From positions 41,679 through 105,678 of IMG/VR virus record IMGVR_UViG_3300032093_000041: a stretch of DNA of 64,000 nt, one strand, 5' to 3'. The DNA is from a virus. The translations under genes were made by a program, and so were the position numbers. The notes beneath the pieces are model-generated. The model saw nothing but the letters and a program-made list of their open reading frames with translations, was not told the DNA's origin and did not search any database. Of the stretch, positions 54,858 to 63,731 are shown piece by piece (position 1 is the first letter of the stretch; each line of letters starts with the position of its first letter).

Positions 54858-54890
54858 AGGGGCGCACCGAATAACGATGCGCCCCCGTGT
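54858..54890 (-). terminator. Terminator of first right-arm cassette
   Basis: Stem GGGGCGCA/TGCGCCCC with an 11-nt loop; on the minus strand followed by TTTTGTTTT. Ends the leftward cassette 55151-54899. Confidence 0.85.
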
Positions 54891-54898
54891 TCGGGTAT

Positions 54899-54952
54899 TT
54901 ATCCAACCGACAATAAAGCAAAAACTGTCAAAGCAACCACAACGGCAACCAT
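54899..54952 (-). CDS. Hydrophobic micro-ORF, 17 aa
   Basis: Starts 1 nt after the stop of the lipoprotein-like gene and reads MVAVVVALTVFALLSVG: almost entirely hydrophobic. Same style as the micro-ORFs at 55775, 56318, 57040 and 59331. Terminator follows at once. Too short to find by homology; the call rests on repeated architecture. Confidence 0.5.
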   Translation of the reverse strand: MVAVVVALTVFALLSVG

Positions 54953-54953
54953 C

Positions 54954-55151
54954 TCACCCCCCTATCTCTGTTGTTGGGTCAAAATAAGGGTCGGGTACTG
55001 TCGTATCCCACGGGCAGGGATAGTGAAAGTACTCGCACTCAGGTATTTCCGTCTCATCTATGCTTGCGAGTTTGGAACAACCAAAAACAGCAAGAGTAAG
55101 AGTGAGCATTAGTAAACCCCAGCGCACGCACGAGCGTACGAAGTAGTACAT
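54954..55151 (-). CDS. Lipoprotein-like or single-TM protein, CEYFHYPC family, 65 aa
   Basis: Reads MYYFVRSCVRWGLLMLTLTLAV then FGCSKLASIDETEIPECEYFHYPC: a hydrophobic signal with a possible lipobox (VFGC) or a single transmembrane helix, then an acidic extracytoplasmic tail. The ECEYFHYPC block is shared with the plus-strand gene at 58733, so the two are paralogs. AAAGGA lies before the ATG. Promoter at 55188-55216. Possibly a surface-exposed superinfection-exclusion factor; inference. Confidence 0.7.
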   Translation of the reverse strand: MYYFVRSCVRWGLLMLTLTLAVFGCSKLASIDETEIPECEYFHYPCPWDTTVPDPYFDPTTEIGG

Positions 55152-55187
55152 AGCATTTCCTTTCGCTAGGCACTCCACCCACCCTGT

Positions 55188-55216
55188 ACCTTACAAGCAA
55201 CAAGGCACGATGTCAA
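55188..55216 (-). promoter_or_regulatory. Cassette promoter
   Basis: Minus-strand TTGACA (55211-55216) and TAAGGT (55188-55193), spacing 17. Lacks the full GTG-N8-CAC dyad of the later cassettes. Confidence 0.75.
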
Positions 55217-55774
55217 GTCTTTCCGAAAAGAAAGTTGCGAAGCCTTCCGAAGTTCCAAGCCGAGCCAGCAACAAGCCGAAGCCGAAGAACAACTCCGTCG
55301 TCCAGAAGACTGACAGTCCCGTGCAGCTCTTCGAGCTTTACGGGGCTAACGCGGGCGGAAGAAGGGGGTGTGGCAAAGTTTGCCAACATAACACGAAAAA
55401 CTCAAAAGTCAAGTTCGTGAAGTCGCCAAAATAAAGGATTTCGGGTTTTTCAGTTTCTAAAAAAATAAGAAAACCGAAAAACTGCCCGAAAGCCGATGCC
55501 ATCTGAGGTCTGCCGCCCGTGCAACTCCCCGTGCGGCTGGCGCTCGAGAGCCCCGCGACTACCCGCAATAAACTGACGGTGGCGGAAGACGGGCTGAGAT
55601 GTTCCAACTTTGAGCAACGCTAGACATCTAGAAAGGCTCAGGTTGGAAGCAGGGTATTTAGGGACACCATCAAGCCGCAAGTCGCCGAGACGGGCAGAGA
55701 GACGGCGATGCGAGGCGATTACGGGCAGCACAAAGCCGCCCCACGACTAAGCAGGGCGGCAAGTGGATTATCTA
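55217..55774. other. Inter-cassette region with hairpin and GACGGTGG element
   Basis: No supported gene. A two-level hairpin lies at 55315-55347: outer AGTCCCGT/ACGGGGCT, inner AGCTC/GAGCT. AT-rich sequence with GTCAAGTT follows. AGCCCCGCG is at about 55553 and the conserved GACGGTGGCGGAAGA at 55573-55591. A plus-strand ORF over 55210-55434 overlaps the promoter and hairpin and is judged chance. Confidence 0.6.
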
Positions 55775-55825
55775 CTAGACAGCAAGCAGCAAGAAAACAG
55801 CAACCGTCAAAATGACAGCGGTCAC
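55775..55825 (-). CDS. Hydrophobic micro-ORF, 16 aa
   Basis: GTG start overlapping the TGA of the 94-residue gene (GTGA). Reads MTAVILTVAVFLLLAV then TAG. Member of the micro-ORF series; closely similar to those at 57040 and 59331. Confidence 0.5.
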   Translation of the reverse strand: MTAVILTVAVFLLLAV

Positions 55826-56106
55826 TCTACAATCTCATCGCTAGCGATACCCAAAGCAGCAAGGGTCGGGTGGTTGCGATGCTGATTACCTTCTGCATCA
55901 ACCCACACAACGACATCACGGCGAGGTGGCTCTGTCCCACACGGATACTTGGCAGCCTTGTGCCAACCTTTACAGGCGCAGCGGTCACATACCGATTCCC
56001 ACGATTCGGGGTCTTGCCACCATAGGTGAGTGTTGTAGTTGGCTAACATTTCATCAACCGTTCCGATAAAAGGTATCGGTTCGTTGATAGTGGTGATTAT
56101 TTGCAT
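55822..56106 (-). CDS. Hypothetical small protein, 94 aa
   Basis: Start at MQIITTINEP because a TACACT -10 ends 7 nt upstream, giving a leaderless mRNA; the 12 codons upstream lie in the promoter. Contains a CDRCACKGWHKAAKYPCG patch (four Cys, His) that may bind zinc, then VVWVDAEGNQHRNHPTL. Function unknown. Followed by a GTGA-overlapping micro-ORF. Confidence 0.7.
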   Translation of the reverse strand: MQIITTINEPIPFIGTVDEMLANYNTHLWWQDPESWESVCDRCACKGWHKAAKYPCGTEPPRRDVVVWVDAEGNQHRNHPTLAALGIASDEIVE

Positions 56107-56113
56107 ACGGGCG

Positions 56114-56161
56114 AGTGTACTGAACAGCACAAGGAGTGTCAAGTGTTGTTTGTCACAGGCA
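56114..56161 (-). promoter_or_regulatory. Cassette promoter with GTG-N8-CAC dyad
   Basis: Minus-strand TTGACA (56137-56142), N17, TACACT (56114-56119). GTGACAAACAACAC abuts the -35 directly. Drives 56106-55775. Confidence 0.85.
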
Positions 56162-56317
56162 CGAGTTGGAGTCGCCGAAGTTCACGGTTTGTCTGGCGAA
56201 CCAGACACGAGCATCTGGTAAATCAGCGGGGCTCACGACCTTCGTGATGGCACTTTTACGACGGTGGCGGAAGACGGGGAAAAGAAAAACCCGCCCCCTT
56301 TCAGGGACGGGCGGTTC
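56162..56317. other. Inter-cassette region, GACGGTGG element and terminator
   Basis: AGCGGGGCT at about 56224-56232, small hairpin CACGA/TCGTG, then GACGGTGGCGGAAGACGGG at 56257-56278. CCCGCCCC/GGGACGGGCGG (56289-56314) with AAAAA on plus is the minus-strand terminator of the next cassette. Confidence 0.6.
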
Positions 56318-56374
56318 TTAGTTCACGGCGGAGAACAACAAAAAAAGAGTAAACGCCGTAATGGCGATGCTCAT
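56318..56374 (-). CDS. Hydrophobic micro-ORF, 18 aa
   Basis: ATG overlapping the TGA of the 55-residue gene (ATGA). Reads MSIAITAFTLFLLFSAVN then TAA. Member of the micro-ORF series. Confidence 0.5.
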   Translation of the reverse strand: MSIAITAFTLFLLFSAVN

Positions 56375-56538
56375 TCAGTGGCTTCTTTCACTTCGTAGTT
56401 CATTTCTTGCCACGAAAGACTTTCATCTTCAGTGTTTGCAAGGCTTGTGATGTACGAATCTATTATTTCTTTTGCTTTTTCTTCGTTATCTGCATCAAAC
56501 TCATCTATGTTGAGCGTGATGTTGGCATAAAACTTCAT
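56371..56538 (-). CDS. Hypothetical protein, 55 aa
   Basis: Start at MKFYANITLNIDEF with a GGGGGG RBS; the upstream in-frame codons lie in the promoter leader. The pattern 'FYANITLNID...ADNEEKAKEIIDSYI' resembles small phage proteins with a beta-strand and one helix. Followed by an ATGA-overlapping micro-ORF. Function unknown. Confidence 0.65.
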   Translation of the reverse strand: MKFYANITLNIDEFDADNEEKAKEIIDSYITSLANTEDESLSWQEMNYEVKEATE

Positions 56539-56558
56539 TTCCCCCCCTTCTTGCCTAC

Positions 56559-56602
56559 AGGCTACAGGTGTCAAGCGCAAATGTCAAAGTGTCGTTTGTC
56601 AC
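56559..56602 (-). promoter_or_regulatory. Cassette promoter with GTG-N8-CAC dyad
   Basis: Minus-strand TTGACA (56582-56587), N17, TAGCCT (56559-56564); GTGACAAACGACAC sits 1 nt upstream of the -35. A second TTGACA lies inside the spacer. Confidence 0.85.
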
Positions 56603-57039
56603 AGCCGAGCCTCAGGTCAGTCCGAGTTGCGCTGCGCCAGTCCGACTTCCGGGCCGCCGGGCCGTCCAGGGCCAGAAACCACGGAACAGTCCCGTTTCCC
56701 CGCACTGGGTAAACGGGGCTACCGCGGGGAAAACCCATCGCACGTACGACGGGTGAGCGACGGGGGCTTGCGCCAAGCAAAAAACTCCAAAGAACTTGAC
56801 TTTCGCTTCGTTTTTGCCACTTTCCGTGAACTTTTTGACTTTCCGACCACGCAGAGTGAGCGTTTTCCAAAAAACAAAAGAAAACAAAGTTGATAATCCG
56901 ATGTCGTACGTCGTGAGGAACTCAGATGCTGGACATCAACTGGGTTAGCAGCGGGGCTGATGACCCAGTCTCATTTACATTGACGGTGGTGGAAGACGGG
57001 CACAAAAAAACCCGCCACATTTCTGTGACGGGCTTTCGT
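56603..57039. other. Long inter-cassette region: hairpins, AT-rich repeat, GACGGTGG element
   Basis: No supported gene in about 440 nt. Hairpin AGTCCCGTTT/AAACGGGGCT at 56688-56720. AT-rich repeat at 56816-56880, about 65 nt, shared with 57568-57630. Hairpin ACTGGGT/ACCCAGT at 56939-56969 with AGCGGGGCT in the loop. GACGGTGGTGGAAGACGGG at 56980-57000. A terminator stem at 57011-57032 ends the next minus-strand cassette. Confidence 0.65.
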
Positions 57040-57090
57040 TCAGATTGCCAACAATAAAAGAACTGCCAGCGCAACTATCAACGCTGTCAT
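57040..57090 (-). CDS. Hydrophobic micro-ORF, 16 aa
   Basis: ATG overlaps the TGA of the 70-residue gene (ATGA). Reads MTALIVALAVLLLLAI then TGA. Nearly identical in plan to the micro-ORFs at 55775 and 59331. Confidence 0.55.
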   Translation of the reverse strand: MTALIVALAVLLLLAI

Positions 57091-57299
57091 TCTTCTTGTT
57101 GTTCTTCTTTCTTTGGACATTCGCCTTGCTTGTGGAAGCAACCTTTTCCATTGAGCCAAATACACTCAACGCCTTCACCAATGATGGTTCCGCACCTACC
57201 ACACTTTGTGTGACTAAATGCTTTTACTATCTTTCCTTGGGATTTAGCAAATCGTTTTGACTTTTGGACTTTGGTTTCTTCCGGATAGAACTCCGGCAT
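57087..57299 (-). CDS. Zinc-ribbon-like small protein, 70 aa
   Basis: Start at MPEFYPEE with the strong RBS AAGGAGGGG. KCGRCGTIIGEGVECIWLNGKGCFHKQGECP contains C-x2-C ... C ... C ... C with His, a zinc-ribbon-like arrangement; the tail is Glu/Gln-rich. DNA or protein binding is possible. Followed by an overlapping micro-ORF. Confidence 0.7.
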   Translation of the reverse strand: MPEFYPEETKVQKSKRFAKSQGKIVKAFSHTKCGRCGTIIGEGVECIWLNGKGCFHKQGECPKKEEQQEE

Positions 57300-57321
57300 A
57301 AACCCCTCCTTAGGTAATAGC

Positions 57322-57367
57322 AAACTACACCCTGTACGCCACAGTCGCAACGTGTCGTGTGTCACAC
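57322..57367 (-). promoter_or_regulatory. Cassette promoter with GTG-N8-CAC dyad
   Basis: Minus-strand TTGCGA (57345-57350), N17, TAGTTT (57322-57327). GTGACACACGACAC lies 1 nt upstream of the -35. Confidence 0.8.
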
Positions 57368-57841
57368 CGAGACGAGCACGAGTTTGGCTTGACCGAGCAA
57401 GAGCGATGGACAACCTGAGCAACTCCGTCTGGCGATGCCATCTGGGCAGAAGTCCCGGACGGCCGTGCGGCCGCATCGGGGCTGCCAGGGACATCTGGCC
57501 AGAAAGCCGGAAGTTGGCCCTCTTCGCTTGCTTTTTCTCGAACTAAAAAGTAAAGTCGAGCAAAAATGACCACTCTCCGTGAGTTTTGACAAACTTTGAC
57601 CACGCAGCGTGACTTTTTCAAAAAACAAACGCAGAAAATCCTCGAGCTGAGCGTGCCCGTCGAGCTGAGCTGAGCTTGATGGGGGCGGGGTAGCGGGGCT
57701 CTCGCCCCCATCTCACTTACTTTGACGGTGGCGGAAGACGGCGCACCACGGGCAAGGGTCAAGGTCACAGGCACACGGGCAAAGCAAAGCCCGCCGTGCG
57801 GGGGGCACACGGCGGGCTTGCTCGGTTGTTTTGGTTGTTGG
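57368..57841. other. Long inter-cassette region: hairpins, AT-rich repeat, GACGGTGG element, terminator
   Basis: Two-level hairpin at 57451-57483 (outer AGTCCCG/CGGGGCT, inner GGCCG/CGGCC). Second copy of the AT-rich repeat at 57568-57630. A perfect 10-bp stem GATGGGGGCG/CGCCCCCATC at 57678-57712 holds AGCGGGGCT in its loop. GACGGTGGCGGAAGACGG at 57721-57740. Terminator AGCCCGCCGTG/CACGGCGGGCT at about 57788-57818 serves the minus-strand gene. Confidence 0.65.
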
Positions 57842-58204
57842 TTACTTCCAGCAGGAAGCGGAATAGACGACTTCGCTCAAGTTGTCACAATAGACATCTG
57901 AAACTTGCGACTCCACAACGATTGAACCCTTCAGTTCTCCACGGGTCACAAGGCGCACACGGCGCACTGTGTAGGTATCCCACGGGTCTAGCACGACTTC
58001 CACCGCGCGAGATTCTCCGCAGAGCATCAACACGCCGACAGTCTCCATGCCTGAATCGTAAACCTTCGCCCACTTGCCACCGCACACAGCGAGAAAGTTC
58101 ATCTTGCCCACTTGGGCTAAGACTTCGCCCGTATCGCACGGGCGACCTTCACGGTCTGAGCAGAGTAACGCCATAAGCGATAGGTCTGTTTTGGTTGCTT
58201 TCAT
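57842..58204 (-). CDS. Hypothetical protein, 120 aa
   Basis: Start at MKATKTDLSLM with AAGGGGG upstream; the 16 codons before it lie over the promoter region. Beta-rich middle (FLAVCGGKWAKVYDSGMETVGVLMLCG; TYTVRRVRLVTRGELKGSIVVESQVSDVY). No motif recognised. Monocistronic cassette with its own promoter and terminator; no micro-ORF follows. Confidence 0.65.
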   Translation of the reverse strand: MKATKTDLSLMALLCSDREGRPCDTGEVLAQVGKMNFLAVCGGKWAKVYDSGMETVGVLMLCGESRAVEVVLDPWDTYTVRRVRLVTRGELKGSIVVESQVSDVYCDNLSEVVYSASCWK

Positions 58205-58225
58205 AATCACCCCCTTACACCTGAC

Positions 58226-58269
58226 AGGGTACAGGCAACACAGCACTAACACAAGTGGCGTTTGTCACA
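58226..58269 (-). promoter_or_regulatory. Cassette promoter with GTG-N8-CAC dyad
   Basis: Minus-strand TTGTGT (58249-58254), N17, TACCCT (58226-58231); GTGACAAACGCCAC abuts the -35. Confidence 0.8.
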
Positions 58270-58358
58270 CGACAGGCGAGGCAGTCCGAGCCAACCCCGA
58301 CAGCCGAGCCGAGAAACTCCCACGGGCGCACGGGCGCAGGCGCACGAGTGCGGGCGGA

Positions 58359-58419
58359 AGTCCCGGACGGCCGCAGCGGCCCATCGGGGCTCCCAGAGAG
58401 ATTTGACGGTGGTGGAAGA
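58359..58419. repeat. Hairpin plus GACGGTGG element
   Basis: Compact copy: outer stem AGTCCCG/CGGGGCT (58359-58391) with inner GGCCGC-type stem, then after 10 nt TTTGACGGTGGTGGAAGA (58402-58419). Lies between two divergent cassette promoters. Confidence 0.75.
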
Positions 58420-58476
58420 ACTCATCGTGATGTGTCCCCGTCTTGACGACCTCACCCTTGCTTGTCTCTCAACGAT

Positions 58477-58519
58477 GTGACAACTGCCACTTGTCATGTG
58501 TGCTTGACACCTGTACCAT
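58477..58519 (+). promoter_or_regulatory. Cassette promoter, plus strand, leaderless
   Basis: TTGTCA (58491-58496), N17, TACCAT (58514-58519), with GTGACAACTGCCAC abutting the -35. The ATG at 58527 follows the -10 by 7 nt. Confidence 0.85.
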
Positions 58520-58526
58520 TCACCCC

Positions 58527-58736
58527 ATGAAAGAGTTCTGTGGAGAAATCATCTACACCAATGCCGATGGCGACAATGTTCAGTCGGACATCTGTAAGCA
58601 CAACACAGATGAGGTGACCGAGGGGTACCGTGCCTTCCTTCATGCCAACCTTGACGAATGGCTGAACAAGGCAAATGGTGAAGGCGCATTTTGGGTCGGC
58701 GACCCTGAATACTTCCGTAGTTGGGAGAAGGAATGA
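58527..58736 (+). CDS. Hypothetical protein, 69 aa
   Basis: Start at MKEFCGEIIYTN, 7 nt after the -10, hence leaderless; the in-frame ATG at 58443 is upstream of the promoter. Contains DICKHNTDEVTEGYRAFLHANLDEWLNKANGEGAFWVGDPEYF. Such short phage proteins have no known role. Overlaps the membrane-protein gene by ATGA. Confidence 0.7.
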   Translation: MKEFCGEIIYTNADGDNVQSDICKHNTDEVTEGYRAFLHANLDEWLNKANGEGAFWVGDPEYFRSWEKE

Positions 58737-58936
58737 GCCACCCACCTATCTATTACAAGGTGCGTTCGTTCGTGAGGTTTGTCTTTTGGACAACTCTCAT
58801 CGGCGCAACTCTATTTCTTATCGCATCTATCGGAGATGAGAAACAAGGCGTCCCTGACTGCGAGTATTTTCACTACCCGTGTGAGACCACGACAACTCTG
58901 TACGACCCATACGGGTACAACATCTACCAACCCTGA
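58733..58936 (+). CDS. Single-TM protein, CEYFHYPC family, 67 aa
   Basis: MSHPPIYYKVRSFVRFVFW then TTLIGATLFLIASIG: one transmembrane helix with basic N-terminal side, then an exposed tail with DCEYFHYPC and Tyr-rich end. Paralogous to 54954-55151 (shared CEYFHYPC, similar position after the helix), though on the other strand and without an obvious lipobox. Coupled to the gene before it by ATGA. Confidence 0.7.
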   Translation: MSHPPIYYKVRSFVRFVFWTTLIGATLFLIASIGDEKQGVPDCEYFHYPCETTTTLYDPYGYNIYQP

Positions 58937-58944
58937 AAGACACA

Positions 58945-59334
58945 ATGATTACCTGCGATACCTGTGGTGTAGAGCAACCGAACACACAACAAGACAGCCT
59001 TCCTGACGGGGGCTGGTCTTTGCCTATTGACCACTTCGGCTACTACGGTGGCTTTGACGACAATGTGGGCGTCCTACTTGGTAGCGATGAAAGTCGCTTT
59101 ATCAGTATGTGTCACGACTGCGTTGTCAAACTTCTAGATGCTTTTCCGTTGCTCGGAGAGAAACTTCGTGGTGGCTGTCACCCGAACTTCATTCATCACG
59201 CTGACTTTGACAGTAATGATGACTGTACCCTTGACCCTTCATGCTGTCGCTGGGCTTGGGGTTGGAAAGGCAAAGAGACCTACATCGGAGACGGCAAAGG
59301 TGGCTGGGTGCTCGTATCTAAGGATACAAAGTGA
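58945..59334 (+). CDS. Cys-rich protein, 129 aa
   Basis: CDTCGVEQPN at the N-terminus, SMCHDCVVKLL in the middle and DPSCCRW near the end make a probable zinc-binding protein, similar in style to phage proteins that begin with a CxxC 'TCDxC' module. No enzyme motif. Third gene of the plus-strand cassette; the stop overlaps a micro-ORF (GTGA). Confidence 0.65.
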   Translation: MITCDTCGVEQPNTQQDSLPDGGWSLPIDHFGYYGGFDDNVGVLLGSDESRFISMCHDCVVKLLDAFPLLGEKLRGGCHPNFIHHADFDSNDDCTLDPSCCRWAWGWKGKETYIGDGKGGWVLVSKDTK

Positions 59335-59381
59335 CTGCCATCATCGTTCTCGTTGCGATTGCGTTGCTGTTCGCACTCTAA
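59331..59381 (+). CDS. Hydrophobic micro-ORF, 16 aa
   Basis: GTG overlapping the TGA of the Cys-rich gene. Reads MTAIIVLVAIALLFAL then TAA. The plus-strand member of the series, showing that the micro-ORF travels with the cassette rather than with one strand. Confidence 0.55.
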   Translation: MTAIIVLVAIALLFAL

Positions 59382-59599
59382 AACAGCGTCTGCTCGCCGT
59401 TTGAGCCTTCTCGCTTACCACCACGCTTAGTCTCTGTTTCCACACAGATGGAATGAGCGTACTTGTGCTGGTTCTTCACACCCTTTATTCCTGTGTTGTT
59501 GTCTGAACGCACCCACGCCAACACCAACTTCATTGTTCCACTTTGCCCTGGCTGGACTTCGTGATTACAGAACTCACACACATAGCGAACGTACGACAT
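59378..59599 (-). CDS. Zinc-finger-like small protein, 73 aa
   Basis: Start at MSYVRYVCEFCNHEVQPG, 7 nt after a TATTAT -10, so leaderless. C-x2-C at the N-terminus and H...C further on (HKYAHSICVETETKRG) form a plausible zinc site. Converges with the micro-ORF at 59331. Confidence 0.7.
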   Translation of the reverse strand: MSYVRYVCEFCNHEVQPGQSGTMKLVLAWVRSDNNTGIKGVKNQHKYAHSICVETETKRGGKREGSNGEQTLF

Positions 59600-59606
59600 C
59601 TCATAA

Positions 59607-59635
59607 ATAATACCGGGCGGGGCTGCTAAGCGCAA
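59607..59635 (-). promoter_or_regulatory. Cassette promoter without dyad
   Basis: Minus-strand TTGCGC (59630-59635), N17, TATTAT (59607-59612). No GTG-N8-CAC dyad here; GCGGGGCT overlaps the spacer. GACGGTGGTGGAAGA follows at 59645-59662. Confidence 0.75.
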
Positions 59636-59687
59636 CGGGTTTGCTTTGACGGTGGTGGAAGAGGGCTGGTTGGGTACACGAAAAAAG

Positions 59688-59723
59688 GGGGGTCGCCCAC
59701 CGTACTTGGCAGGCGACCCCCCT
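59688..59723 (-). terminator. Terminator of 191-aa gene
   Basis: Strong stem GGGGGGTCGCC/GGCGACCCCCC with a 14-nt loop and A-rich sequence on the plus side, 18 nt after the stop of the minus-strand gene. Confidence 0.8.
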
Positions 59724-59740
59724 TCCGTAGGGGGTACGGT

Positions 59741-60316
59741 CTAGTTGTTCTTGGCGTTGGTGATTGTCTTACACGCCATCGTGAACGCCTTGAAGATGTC
59801 TGCGACAGTCCCTTCCATCTCGCCTTCCAACATCTCAGGCTCGTCATAGACAGGCAAGCCCTTGTCGTTGTAGCGATAGAACACGGTTGTTCCGATGGCT
59901 TGTCCTTCCCACGGATACAGACCCACGATAAGCCCTTCACGCACATCGCTTGTTGGGTTCGTCTTGTACTCTTCTTCGTACATTCCACGGCTCCAATCTT
60001 CGGGCAGGCTCTCCACCCCTTCGTGTGTTGGCTTTGCGTAGCCTTCTACGACATACGCAAGCCACTTCCATTGAACCGATGAGAACTGTGCCATCATCGT
60101 TTCAGCGAGTGCTGACAGCATCAACGGCAAGGTGTCGGTTGGGTGTCCATCGTTGTAGTCGGGTGCGATGAAGCCTTCGCCTGTCGGTAGTTCACCGAGC
60201 AGTACAGGTGGCGTATCGCACATTCCATTGTTGTCCACGCACATCTCGTACTTGACTTCCATCGCGCGAGCGATTACAGAAGCCAATAGTTCAGATGGTG
60301 TCTGTTCTTCTTCCAT
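59741..60316 (-). CDS. Hypothetical protein, 191 aa
   Basis: Begins MEEEQTPSELLASVIARAMEVKYEM after GGGGGG. Contains PDYNDGHPTDTLPLMLSALAETMMAQFSSVQWKWLAYVVEGYAKP and a beta-rich second half (GQAIGTTVFYRYNDKGLPVY). No family recognised; larger than other cassette genes. Own promoter and terminator. Confidence 0.65.
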   Translation of the reverse strand: MEEEQTPSELLASVIARAMEVKYEMCVDNNGMCDTPPVLLGELPTGEGFIAPDYNDGHPTDTLPLMLSALAETMMAQFSSVQWKWLAYVVEGYAKPTHEGVESLPEDWSRGMYEEEYKTNPTSDVREGLIVGLYPWEGQAIGTTVFYRYNDKGLPVYDEPEMLEGEMEGTVADIFKAFTMACKTITNAKNN

Positions 60317-60359
60317 TTGTGTACCCCCCTATGGGTAGTTGGTGTGTATTACAAGGTAG

Positions 60360-60402
60360 AAGATACAGGCGATAACACAGTTTGTCAAGTGTCGTTTGTC
60401 AC
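60360..60402 (-). promoter_or_regulatory. Cassette promoter with GTG-N8-CAC dyad
   Basis: Minus-strand TTGACA (60383-60388), N17, TATCTT (60360-60365); GTGACAAACGACAC directly abuts the -35. The best consensus copy. Confidence 0.9.
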
Positions 60403-60618
60403 AGGCGAGACAGGGGTGACAGACAGGTGGCGAGTTGGCAGGTGGCGACGAAACTGAGTGGCGACGGCGCAGATGCGCCCGATAGCCCCGCGCTGCGATG
60501 CGACCGTCCGGGGCTCGCACCTTCCGACGGTGGCGGGAGACGGCGCACGGGCAGTCGTTGGGCAAGCAAAAAGCCCGCCCCCTTTCGGAGACGGGCAGTT
60601 CGCCGTGTTGTTCAGTTG
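60403..60618. other. Inter-cassette region: hairpin, GACGGTGG element, terminator
   Basis: Outer stem AGCCCCG/CGGGGCT at 60484-60515, where T in the other copies is C here, keeping the pair. GACGGTGGCGGGAGA at 60524-60540. A minus-strand terminator (AAGCCCGCC...GACGGGC) at about 60570-60597. No gene seen. Confidence 0.65.
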
Positions 60619-60975
60619 TTAGCGGTCTGGATTAGGCATTGCCTTCACCGTAAAAGTTCCGCTTGCATCGTGGTGAGAGAGGTGACAAGTAAGCACCATT
60701 GTTTCGGGGTCAAGCGTGTAGCGCAATGACCATTCCGAACGAACGGTAATACTTTCCAACAACTTCATCGGCGTATCGGCGTGGAAAATACCGTCAAGCC
60801 CACCACTCCACAATGGGAATCCCTCAATGCGCCACCAAGTGTCGCCTTCGTGAAGTTCCTCATTATGGGCAATGAGCGTGTTGGCAACCTCAGCGAACAA
60901 GTCTGTCGCAAAGTCCCACTCCACTTCGTCTGAAGTGTTGCTCACCTCTTCCCACTCAATGACAGAATCAGTCAT
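60619..60975 (-). CDS. Hypothetical protein, 118 aa
   Basis: Start at MTDSVIEWEEV with AAGGGGG upstream. Reads HNEELHEGDTWWRIEGFPLWSGG and WSLRYTLDPETMVLTCHLSHHDASGTFTVKAM, an alpha/beta fold without recognised motif. Monocistronic cassette. Confidence 0.65.
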   Translation of the reverse strand: MTDSVIEWEEVSNTSDEVEWDFATDLFAEVANTLIAHNEELHEGDTWWRIEGFPLWSGGLDGIFHADTPMKLLESITVRSEWSLRYTLDPETMVLTCHLSHHDASGTFTVKAMPNPDR

Positions 60976-61004
60976 GATTCCCCCTTTTGTGAGTTGAGAA
61001 TCTA

Positions 61005-61033
61005 AGACTACAAAGTTAGTAGCCACTTGTCAA
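61005..61033 (-). promoter_or_regulatory. Cassette promoter
   Basis: Minus-strand TTGACA (61028-61033), N17, TAGTCT (61005-61010). The dyad region is degenerate (GTCACACAATAAC). Confidence 0.75.
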
Positions 61034-61050
61034 ATAGTTATTGTGTGACA

Positions 61051-61116
61051 TTAGCCACTTGCGAACAATGCGATGAGTGCGATGACTACAACAATAGAGA
61101 CTAATGACATGGGCAT
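61051..61116 (-). CDS. Possible hydrophobic micro-ORF, 21 aa
   Basis: Reads MPM then SLVSIVVVIALIALFASG and TAA, just upstream of the 61005 promoter on the same strand. Hydrophobic like the other micro-ORFs, but no parent gene overlaps it, so it may be a decayed remnant of a cassette. Confidence 0.35.
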   Translation of the reverse strand: MPMSLVSIVVVIALIALFASG

Positions 61117-61509
61117 ACCTTAGTGGCTGTCGGCAAGCAACGCAACCCGATGTCGCCGATGTCGCCGATGGCAACACAGATGGGGCGGAAGTCCCGGACG
61201 GGATTTTTGTCCCGCGGGGCTCCCACAGGACTTTGACGGTGGTGGAAGACCCTTCTCCCAGTCTGAGACACTTTCCCCCAGTTAGTCTCACGAGACAGTC
61301 GCACCAAATGTGTCTCACCGAACACCTGTTCTGTGACAAATGACACTTGCTAACTGTGCTTGACACCTGTACCCTTCTATGTGGGCAACCGACCCAACTA
61401 GCCTACGAGTTCGCAAGCGACCTGCCCGTAGGGGGACTAGAAGGGAAGGGGGTATGTCGTAGGGAAGGCACACCCGCCCACTCAACACCTAATAGATAAG
61501 GGGAACGGA
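61117..61509. other. Inter-cassette region: hairpin, GACGGTGG element, plus-strand promoter and leader
   Basis: Two-level hairpin at 61190-61221 (outer AGTCCCG/CGGGGCT, inner GGGA/TCCC) and TTTGACGGTGGTGGAAGAC at 61232-61250. Promoter with dyad GTGACAAATGACAC, TTGCTA (61347-61352), N17, TACCCT (61370-61375). The 61510 gene has a leader of about 130 nt; a 27-codon ORF begins at 61379 in it but is not supported. Confidence 0.7.
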
Positions 61510-62103
61510 ATGGGAATGGACGTATTTGGGCAAGACCCAAAGAATGAAAAGGGCGAATACTTCCGCAACAATGTGTGGTGGTGGCGTCCCCTGTGGGAGT
61601 TCTGCGAGTTTGTCGCACCTGAACTTACGAGCATGGTTGAGAACGGATACTCCAATGACGGAGACGGGCTTGACGGAGAAGATGCGAAGGAACTTGCCAA
61701 AGTTCTACGCAAGAGCCTGCGTGACGGAACGCTGGACAACTACGAGCAGACACGCAACGAGTGGCTTGCGTCTTTGCCTATTCGCCCCTGTGTTCATTGT
61801 CAGGCGACTGGTAAGCGCACTTGGTACACCAACCCCGACAACAATGGCGACTACACGCCTTCTGTGGAATACAGCATTGCGGAAGCCTTTGCCAACGAGA
61901 TAGCCACCGAAGGTAATGGTTGTTTGCCGACCTACACACCTGTTGAGAAGCCCGAAGGCTGGCTGGAAGAAACCAAAGAATGTAACGCCTGTGGGGGAAC
62001 TGGCGGTCAGCAACACTTTGCGAAGAACTATCCGTTTGACAAGAAGAATGTCCGTGAGTTCGCTACTTTCTTAGCAAACTGCGGTGGCTTTCAGATTTGC
62101 TAA
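61510..62103 (+). CDS. Zinc-knuckle phage protein, 197 aa
   Basis: MGMDVFGQDPKNEKGEYFRNNVWWWRPLW is the start of a family widespread in phages ('MGxDVxGxxP..E.GEYFRNNVWWWRPL'), of unknown function. Two CxxCxG motifs (PCVHCQATGK; ECNACGGTGG) resemble DnaJ-type zinc knuckles. AAGGGG lies upstream. It heads a three-gene operon with a DUF4314-like gene and a 93-residue gene. Confidence 0.8.
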   Translation: MGMDVFGQDPKNEKGEYFRNNVWWWRPLWEFCEFVAPELTSMVENGYSNDGDGLDGEDAKELAKVLRKSLRDGTLDNYEQTRNEWLASLPIRPCVHCQATGKRTWYTNPDNNGDYTPSVEYSIAEAFANEIATEGNGCLPTYTPVEKPEGWLEETKECNACGGTGGQQHFAKNYPFDKKNVREFATFLANCGGFQIC

Positions 62104-62321
62104 TGAAACGCATTGACCAACTCGCAAACGAATGGGTGAAGGGCGCACTTGCTGGAAAGCGGGTGCGCCTTATCCGTTGCTCAGACCCATACACGAAACT
62201 ACAAAGTGGTGACGAAGGCGTTGTGGACTACATTGACGACATGGGTACTGTTCATGTCAAGTGGGACAACGGCTCATCACTCGGTCTAATACAAGGAGAA
62301 GATACATGGACATACGAGTAG
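62103..62321 (+). CDS. DUF4314-like protein, 72 aa
   Basis: GKRVRLIRCSDPYTKLQSGDEGVVDYIDDMGTVHVKWDNGSSLGLIQGEDTW matches the DUF4314 pattern: a small SH3-like beta barrel of unknown role frequent in phages and Firmicutes. Start at MKRIDQ, whose first base is the last base of the upstream stop. Coupled to both neighbours. Confidence 0.85.
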   Translation: MKRIDQLANEWVKGALAGKRVRLIRCSDPYTKLQSGDEGVVDYIDDMGTVHVKWDNGSSLGLIQGEDTWTYE

Positions 62322-62587
62322 ACCTCGCCAGTTGGCGATACTGGACAGATGAAGAAATAGTGGAAACGCTTTACGAGCATTACTACACGCTTGCCTCAAC
62401 GGGGGAACACGCTGTCATGGCTGTTCTACACGACATCACCAAGCACCGTTTCTTCCACTATCACTTGGTAGATGACGAGCGCATGGGTCTTATCCTTGTC
62501 AAGTTCGCCCGTGAACTGGAAGATAAAGGGCAGATGTCTGTCCCCGCTATGGACTTCTACCGTTCTCAACAGACCGACAAGGGATAG
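62306..62587 (+). CDS. Hypothetical protein, 93 aa
   Basis: MDIRVDLASWRYWTDEEIV after AAGGAGAAG. Helical, with HAVMAVLHDITKHRFFHYHLVDDERMGLILVKFARELEDKG. Overlaps the DUF4314-like gene by 16 nt in another frame. Function unknown. Confidence 0.65.
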   Translation: MDIRVDLASWRYWTDEEIVETLYEHYYTLASTGEHAVMAVLHDITKHRFFHYHLVDDERMGLILVKFARELEDKGQMSVPAMDFYRSQQTDKG

Positions 62588-62609
62588 TCTTTCCTACCCC
62601 TGTCACGCT

Positions 62610-62645
62610 CAACCCCCTGTTTCGTCTCACGCTGGCGAAGCAGGG
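62610..62645 (+). terminator. Plus-strand terminator
   Basis: Long stem AACCCCCTG/CAGGGGGTT with TTTTGCTTTG after it. It ends the 61510-62587 operon. Confidence 0.8.
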
Positions 62646-62848
62646 GGTTTTGCTTTGTCTACCATCACGGCCATCAGCGCAGCGGCCATCAGAACTATCT
62701 GGCCTAAATAAAACCCGCCGGGGCTACCGACCCCCGTCTTCACTACTTTGACGGTGGTGGAAGACCCTTCGTGGGGAAGTTCGGGGACAGCAGAAAGCCC
62801 CCACCTGCCGAGGCAAGTGAGGGCTAACTGTTGGAAGTGGGTTGTGGT
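62646..62848. other. Inter-cassette region with GACGGTGG element
   Basis: CGGGG...CCCCCG hairpin around 62719-62736 and TTTGACGGTGGTGGAAGA at 62747-62764. A minus-strand terminator GCCCCCAC...GTGAGGGC lies at about 62799-62824. No gene. Confidence 0.6.
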
Positions 62849-63304
62849 TTAGTTGTTCTTGGCGAGAAGTGCGTTGAGAGCAGAGAGCAAGGCGTTAGCG
62901 AGTGAGCCTGTTCCGTTGCCTTCGTCTGTCACGAGGTCGTCAGGGTCAGTCTCAAAGGCGAGAGCCGACCCCATTTTTCCACCACGCTCAACGCACGAGC
63001 AAAGGCGTACACGCTTGCGCTCAGGGTGTGCGCTTGGTGCGCCTTCTACTTCTCCGTTGTCACCGAGTGGCGCAGCCCAACCTGTTGTGATGATGCCAAT
63101 GCCTTGGTCGTCTTCTTTGAGCGACTGAATGTGTGGAAGGCTCTCCAACGCTTCGTAAATGTCTTCTGCTGTTGCGAGAAGACGGAAACCGTCAGCGCAG
63201 TATGCGAACAGTATCGCCTGTTCCATAGTGAAGCCTTCGCCCCCTTCCATAGTGAGTGTGCGCTGGGCAAGTTCTGCCATACGCACAGGTGATGATGTGG
63301 TCAT
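62849..63304 (-). CDS. Hypothetical protein, 151 aa
   Basis: MTTSSPVRMAELAQRTLTMEGGEGFTMEQAILFAYCADGFRLLATAEDIYEALESL is helical; the second half (IGIITTGWAAPLGDNGEVEG ... KRVRLCSCV) is beta-like, ending in a helical Ala/Leu-rich tail. GAAAGGGG lies before the ATG. No recognised family; own promoter and terminator. Confidence 0.65.
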   Translation of the reverse strand: MTTSSPVRMAELAQRTLTMEGGEGFTMEQAILFAYCADGFRLLATAEDIYEALESLPHIQSLKEDDQGIGIITTGWAAPLGDNGEVEGAPSAHPERKRVRLCSCVERGGKMGSALAFETDPDDLVTDEGNGTGSLANALLSALNALLAKNN

Positions 63305-63338
63305 CTCTGTCCCCTTTCGTGGGCTAGTAGGTGATTAC

Positions 63339-63382
63339 AAGTTACAGAGTGTAAGGCACAATGTCAATGTGTCGTTTGTCAC
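63339..63382 (-). promoter_or_regulatory. Cassette promoter with GTG-N8-CAC dyad
   Basis: Minus-strand TTGACA (63362-63367), N17, TAACTT (63339-63344); GTGACAAACGACAC 1 nt upstream of the -35. Confidence 0.88.
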
Positions 63383-63731
63383 AGGGATTAGTCGGACACA
63401 TCACATAGGACACATCACAGTCGGACTAACCCCAAACTTTGAGCAAGTCCAAACTTCGGCTGAACCAGATGCGACTTCTGGGGCGACATCTGGGGTGACA
63501 GCCCCGCGAGCCGTCTTCGCCCAACGGGGCTCACAAGGCTGACGGTGGTGGAAGAAGCCCCCTGCGCCCGTGCGTGTGTGCGCCTGCCCGTGCGTGTGCG
63601 TACCTGTGCGCCTGCCCGACCCTGTGACAACAGACACAGAAGAAAGATGTTGTGTGAGTGTTGTGCCTGTGCCTTACACCCTGTATCTTTCACCCTGTAC
63701 CAAACAGCCCGATGGCAAGGTCGGTAGGCGT
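63383..63731. other. Inter-cassette region: hairpin and GACGGTGG element
   Basis: Outer stem AGCCCCG/CGGGGCT at 63500-63531; GACGGTGGTGGAAGA at 63539-63555. The remainder (to 63731) is GT/GC-rich low-complexity sequence with GTGCGTGTG-like runs. No gene supported. Confidence 0.6.

Follow-up and report, generated by a model that had tools for sequence, protein, structure and literature searches.

Six very short open reading frames (ORFs), here called micro-ORFs and numbered 1 to 6 along the sequence, lie in a 64,000-nucleotide stretch of viral DNA (the window), which represents positions 41,679-105,678 of the 105,678-bp IMG/VR record IMGVR_UViG_3300032093_000041. They are genuine genes and encode a multi-copy family of uncharged hydrophobic peptides of 15-19 residues, carried by phages of freshwater actinobacteria and probably acting on the host membrane, either in the manner of the Ibs toxins or by blocking a membrane process; we put the probability of this reading, taken as a whole, at about one half. 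In the loci compared, the open frame, the start codon, the length and the hydrophobicity are kept by selection, while the upstream gene, the coupling geometry and the exact residues change. We strongly infer that the micro-ORFs are translated and that their products insert into the membrane. A preliminary description of the window had proposed that the series is not due to chance and probably encodes membrane micropeptides, and the conserved frames and the substitution pattern support that proposal.

Orthologs were located via the flanking genes and not via the peptides themselves, and the comparison is therefore not selected for hydrophobicity. Within the related group of phages, homologs of the 71-, 74-, 106- and 57-amino-acid (aa) genes of the window are followed by a hydrophobic ORF of 15-18 aa where the gene ends its unit, and the same holds for homologs of the 129-aa gene in that group. 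In other phage types the 129-aa gene has more distant homologs, most of them without a micro-ORF. The orthologous micro-ORFs differ in sequence and keep the hydrophobic, uncharged character. Those of micro-ORF 1 read MVAVVLALTVFALLAV (L070), MVAVVVTLALVALMATS (L057), MSALITVLAVIVLFTV (L006) and MSSVIFVAVLFAILAL (L075), and that of micro-ORF 3 reads MSLIITTVAVILLFSAVN (L070). Orthologs are likewise present for micro-ORF 2 (L006, L069, L055, L056, L057 and L070), micro-ORF 4 (L006, L069, L070, L071, L074, L075, L007 and L056) and micro-ORF 5 (L006, L069, L075, L007, L057, L072, L016 and L023). Neither frameshifts nor early stops occur in the homologous loci of relatives, and substitutions are mostly synonymous or exchange one hydrophobic residue for another. 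The 90 nucleotide differences among 15 sister pairs are distributed 36/5/49 over codon positions 1, 2 and 3, and they produce 35 amino-acid changes (55.8 expected under random substitution) and a single new polar or stop codon (17.3 expected). Pooled over the pairs, the non-synonymous value (pN) is 0.157 and the synonymous value (pS) 0.304. By the codon test and by pN/pS, purifying selection is thus seen in the micro-ORF reading frame, as expected of a protein-coding gene.

Short ORFs are common, and chance or an artefact of composition could in principle yield such a series. The scan for further examples accepted ORFs of 14-20 aa with a mean hydropathy of at least 2 and without charged, His or Gln residues, provided that they began close to the stop of an ORF no shorter than 45 aa. 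The region from 54 to 64 kb contains five matches at 100 ORF stops, a count that includes the micro-ORF at 61051, owing to the chance proximity of an out-of-frame ORF stop, and omits the one at 56318, whose hydropathy is marginally too low. There were no matches at 577 stops in the remainder of the 105.7-kb record, none in 100 dinucleotide shuffles, and none in two cultured actinophages (180 kb, 1450 stops). Other freshwater phage loci gave two matches at 1999 stops; one of these, in L046, lies behind a zinc-ribbon gene and is a true relative of the same class. Lengths are also uneven. Among 3470 distinct stop-coupled short ORFs of 6-45 aa, the hydrophobic fraction is 22 of 125 at a length of 16 aa and 21 of 149 at 17 aa, and it is zero throughout the range 22-45 aa; because these ORFs were collected near relatives of the window, the peak at 16-17 aa describes these phages and not phages generally. 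Judged by sequence, hydrophobic stop-coupled ORFs are a class of fixed length near that of one membrane span. Conservation in relatives, the codon test, the stop scans with their shuffles and the length peak all contradict chance, which is effectively ruled out by the conservation, the shuffles and the control phages; the earlier judgement that chance is unlikely is borne out on the same grounds.

Each phage of this group has 5-7 copies, and these numbers are minima since many contigs are fragments. About a dozen gene families precede micro-ORFs; two are zinc-ribbon types, and the others include a lipoprotein-like gene and an XRE-type regulator (automatic clustering of the upstream genes returned 30 clusters, several of which are spurious frames). 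Two window genes, 60619-60975 and 62312-62587, lack a micro-ORF, and their homologs elsewhere have one. Micro-ORFs come and go between homologous genes. It may be, as a tentative extension, that the micro-ORF represents a new class of phage gene, a mobile, multi-copy 'terminal micropeptide' that spreads among unrelated accessory genes within a phage, the set of 5-7 evolving in coordination and together building a membrane-active assembly or dose for host take-over.

The peptides are almost devoid of charge, with 8 charged residues among 851 in 50 peptides from the window and related loci, and the predicted insertion energy of the core is favourable in 47 of the 50. Small residues are favoured at positions 3, 9 and 15 (80/141, P<2e-4, a value that is optimistic because the positions were picked after viewing the sequences), and there is a lag-6 signal with a z of 4.6. 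Small residues with a period of six do not fall on one face of an alpha-helix, and their spacing may reflect common descent. Peptides of one phage resemble each other (similarity 0.432) more than they resemble those at other positions in other phages (0.344, P<1/3000); same-position copies in other phages have a similarity of 0.395, nominally slightly below the within-phage value.

This pattern bears on the main rival to general membrane action, in which the peptides are real and membrane-inserted, and each binds or modulates one particular membrane protein of the host or phage, much as KdpF, CydX or AcrZ do. The strict length, the small residues at positions 3, 9 and 15 and the resemblance within each phage would suggest a shared, host-specific target. 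Against this, the exact residues are highly variable among orthologs, and a single stoichiometric partner would leave several of the copies redundant. KdpF, CydX and AcrZ are single-span small proteins of about 29 aa or longer that bind or adjoin a defined complex, whereas no defined complex was found with the micro-ORFs. A specific partner is possible and, on this balance, somewhat doubtful.

The peptides and coordinates of the five coupled micro-ORFs and the sixth read as first described, as do the four 4-nt GTGA or ATGA overlaps and the one 1-nt gap. Micro-ORF 1 (54899-54952, minus strand; MVAVVVALTVFALLSVG, 17 aa) starts 1 nt past the stop of a lipoprotein-like gene (54954-55178, minus), whose homologs begin MYYFVRSC, at about 55151. 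Micro-ORF 2 (55775-55825, minus; MTAVILTVAVFLLLAV, 16 aa) shares a GTGA overlap with a Cys-containing gene of 106 aa (55822-56142, minus) that has no Pfam or PHROG match. ATGA overlaps link micro-ORF 3 (56318-56374, minus; MSIAITAFTLFLLFSAVN, 18 aa) to a 57-aa gene (56371-56544, minus) and micro-ORF 4 (57040-57090, minus; MTALIVALAVLLLLAI, 16 aa) to a 71-aa, zinc-ribbon-like gene (57087-57302, minus; CGRC...). On the plus strand, micro-ORF 5 (59331-59381; MTAIIVLVAIALLFAL, 16 aa) follows a Cys-rich gene of 129 aa (58945-59334) with a GTGA overlap. Pfam and PHROG searches with the flanking genes gave no informative match. Each copy had also been described as lying just before a terminator or a converging gene, and this holds. 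Hairpins with T-runs begin 6-15 nt downstream of the four coupled copies on the minus strand, with terminator-like hairpins of the intrinsic type behind micro-ORF 1 (54858-54886, minus) and further ones behind micro-ORF 2 (55735-55760, minus), micro-ORF 3 (56289-56312, minus) and micro-ORF 4 (57010-57033, minus, with its T-run, from the downstream sequence); the stop of micro-ORF 5 meets the stop of a convergent gene. The genes at 58736-58936 and 54954-55178 are paralogous small membrane or lipoprotein-like genes that share CEYFHYPC, and only the one that ends its unit has a micro-ORF behind it.

Micro-ORF 6 (61051-61110, minus; MSLVSIVVVIALIALFASG, 19 aa) is stand-alone, behind no gene, and upstream of the promoter-like region of a 118-aa gene. 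A promoter-like TTGCGT-17-TAAGGT (61117-61145, minus, read by eye) ends 6 nt 5' of its ATG, and the stand-alone copy in related phages has -10-like hexamers 6-8 nt before the ATG, again by eye. The position of these hexamers suggests that the message may be leaderless. This copy had been ranked as weaker than the others; it is likewise conserved in place, with different residues, in L076, L079/L083, L080 and L081.

Across orthologs, the micro-ORF start varies between 8 nt ahead of the end of the upstream stop and 10 nt beyond it, with no fixed relative frame, and copies that do not overlap often have their own purine-rich Shine-Dalgarno-like site. Initiation signals are of three kinds: a stop-start overlap, an individual Shine-Dalgarno-like site, or a promoter-like hexamer 6-8 nt before the ATG. 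Because the geometry varies, some copies have ribosome sites of their own and the sixth is apparently leaderless, the peptide and not the overlap is the conserved entity. These same features disfavour the translation-coupled stabilisers suggested in the preliminary description. A related model, in which a short, translation-coupled terminal ORF serves in cis to clear ribosomes ahead of the terminator, or to position them there, and the peptide is irrelevant, fits the fact that most copies overlap a stop and sit just before a terminator; it is quite improbable given the selection on hydrophobicity, the offsets ranging from -8 to +10 and the conserved stand-alone copy with its own promoter-like site. 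The start of the micro-ORFs at, or a few bases from, the upstream stop might also indicate hydrophobic C-terminal tails, which frameshifting or readthrough of the stop would add to the upstream protein. The frame relative to the upstream gene varies among orthologs, with an ATG or GTG kept each time, and such fusions are, to all intents, ruled out.

In the favoured model of membrane-active peptides, ribosomes ending a small accessory gene would re-initiate on the micro-ORF; alternatively, initiation would use the micro-ORF's own site or a leaderless mRNA. At termination, a chain of 16 residues has not yet left the exit tunnel of the ribosome. The nascent chain is therefore unlikely to tether the message, and the probable agent is the peptide after its release. 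It would enter the host cytoplasmic membrane and there change membrane potential or permeability, as Ibs does, or block a membrane process, for host take-over or the exclusion of other phages. Since copies follow many unrelated genes and their total per phage is similar, action of the copies in trans, with an additive dose on the membrane, is most likely.

Ibs is present in several copies per Escherichia coli genome. These peptides, with about 19 residues that are almost all hydrophobic, are the closest to the micro-ORFs in size and composition, and the micro-ORF products, with 15-19 aa and so few charges, agree with the hydrophobic toxin of about 18-19 aa that characterizes Ibs-Sib systems. 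IbsC (19 aa) depolarises the membrane and remains toxic when shortened to 15 residues of which 10 or more are hydrophobic (PMC8309996); a frameshifted IbsC is still toxic (PMC7192591), and hydrophobicity seems to outweigh exact sequence. By analogy, the micro-ORF peptides may possibly be small toxins. Charge plays a role in other type I toxins, ZorO for example (PMC9860968), and an uncharged peptide therefore need not be toxic. The micro-ORFs differ from Ibs in being borne by actinophages and attached to unrelated genes, with no antisense RNA found; nor is the mRNA generally free-standing, since in the window only the copy at 61051 stands alone and the other five are coupled to another gene. 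As most messages are not free-standing, antisense RNA was not found and any toxicity is putative, the micro-ORFs are not filed here as Ibs-family toxins and would at most be Ibs-like in action.

True type I toxin-antitoxin pairs, each toxin being checked by an antisense RNA in Ibs-Sib style, would account for the length, hydrophobicity and copy number (compare IbsC, 19 aa; PMC8309996). The peptides are coupled to other genes, a promoter scan found no antisense promoter-like site directed into the micro-ORFs (sequence scans cannot exclude an antisense RNA), and Rfam returned nothing credible, only a sub-threshold DnaX-like match elsewhere; such pairs are unlikely. Precursors of secreted hydrophobic signals, comparable to the enterococcal pheromone inhibitors, share a generic likeness of hydrophobic ends. 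The micro-ORF peptides lack a charged N-terminus and a conserved mature segment, and many divergent copies occur per genome, making this origin very unlikely. The Arp1-3 peptides are very small and hydrophobic, insert in the membrane and lower its potential (PMC6550523); they were selected in the laboratory from random libraries, whereas the micro-ORFs constitute a conserved natural gene family. The GMSC catalogue covers predicted ORFs of 9-99 residues in metagenomes (PMC11364881), and some micro-ORFs could therefore be listed there. The literature searched contains no account of the family, nor of how many copies occur or of their placement at 3' ends.

Several points weigh against general membrane action by a selected family. 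Some of the peptides are on the short side for crossing the whole membrane, and the sequence evidence does not separate membrane damage from the binding of one membrane protein. Sister pairs share phages across loci, so that the codon counts are not fully independent, and the within-phage resemblance could come partly from shared codon usage or recent duplication.

The source is a contractile-tailed phage, with tail sheath, baseplate, large terminase, portal and major head protein families present. A whiB gene, an indicator of actinophages (PMC10202952), is found in 16/16 records tested of the window phage and its relatives; among 14 control genomes it occurs in Corynebacterium glutamicum only. 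The closest terminases in sequenced phages are 40-44% identical and belong mostly to Gordonia and Brevibacterium phages. On the basis of whiB and these terminases, the host is taken to be a freshwater actinobacterium. The collections searched comprised viral contigs and a named phage set; a DNA search of sequenced phages gave no close relatives of the window, and the 71-aa and 129-aa genes had no protein match there.

The same region contains a repeated intergenic element (ACGGTGGYGGAAGA; core TTTGACGGTGGYGGAAGA), with ten plus-strand copies at 55574-63555 and others in relatives. It recurs about every 800 bp (median 791) and without exception keeps to one strand, irrespective of gene direction. 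Among 92 loci with at least three copies (many overlapping the same contigs), none are mixed-strand, and there are 223 distinct contexts. GGGGCT often lies about 30 nt upstream of the element. Dependence of the micro-ORFs on this element was considered and rejected, as many phages with element arrays have no micro-ORF in the stretches examined. A genome-collection search with the element returned two unrelated-looking records only, and no host. L128 (JAURLY010000091.1), binned as a gammaproteobacterium, has five one-strand copies and may be a misbinned phage contig. Promoter-like modules (about TGTGACAAACGACACTTGACA) occur at 56114-56160, 57350-57370, 60360-60400 and 61020-61050, upstream of many of the array genes; their similarity suggests separately transcribed cassettes that may share an operator.

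Genes of 48-60 nt, stop included, fall under the usual length cut-off of gene finders. The micro-ORFs are below that cut-off, yet each phage has 5-7 of them, clearly under selection, and they represent a gene previously unannotated. A hydrophobic ORF of 16-17 aa at the end of an operon is a simple search pattern for such genes in other phages. If the proposed membrane action is true, freshwater actinophages would deploy dispersed, minimal membrane peptides against abundant lake bacteria.

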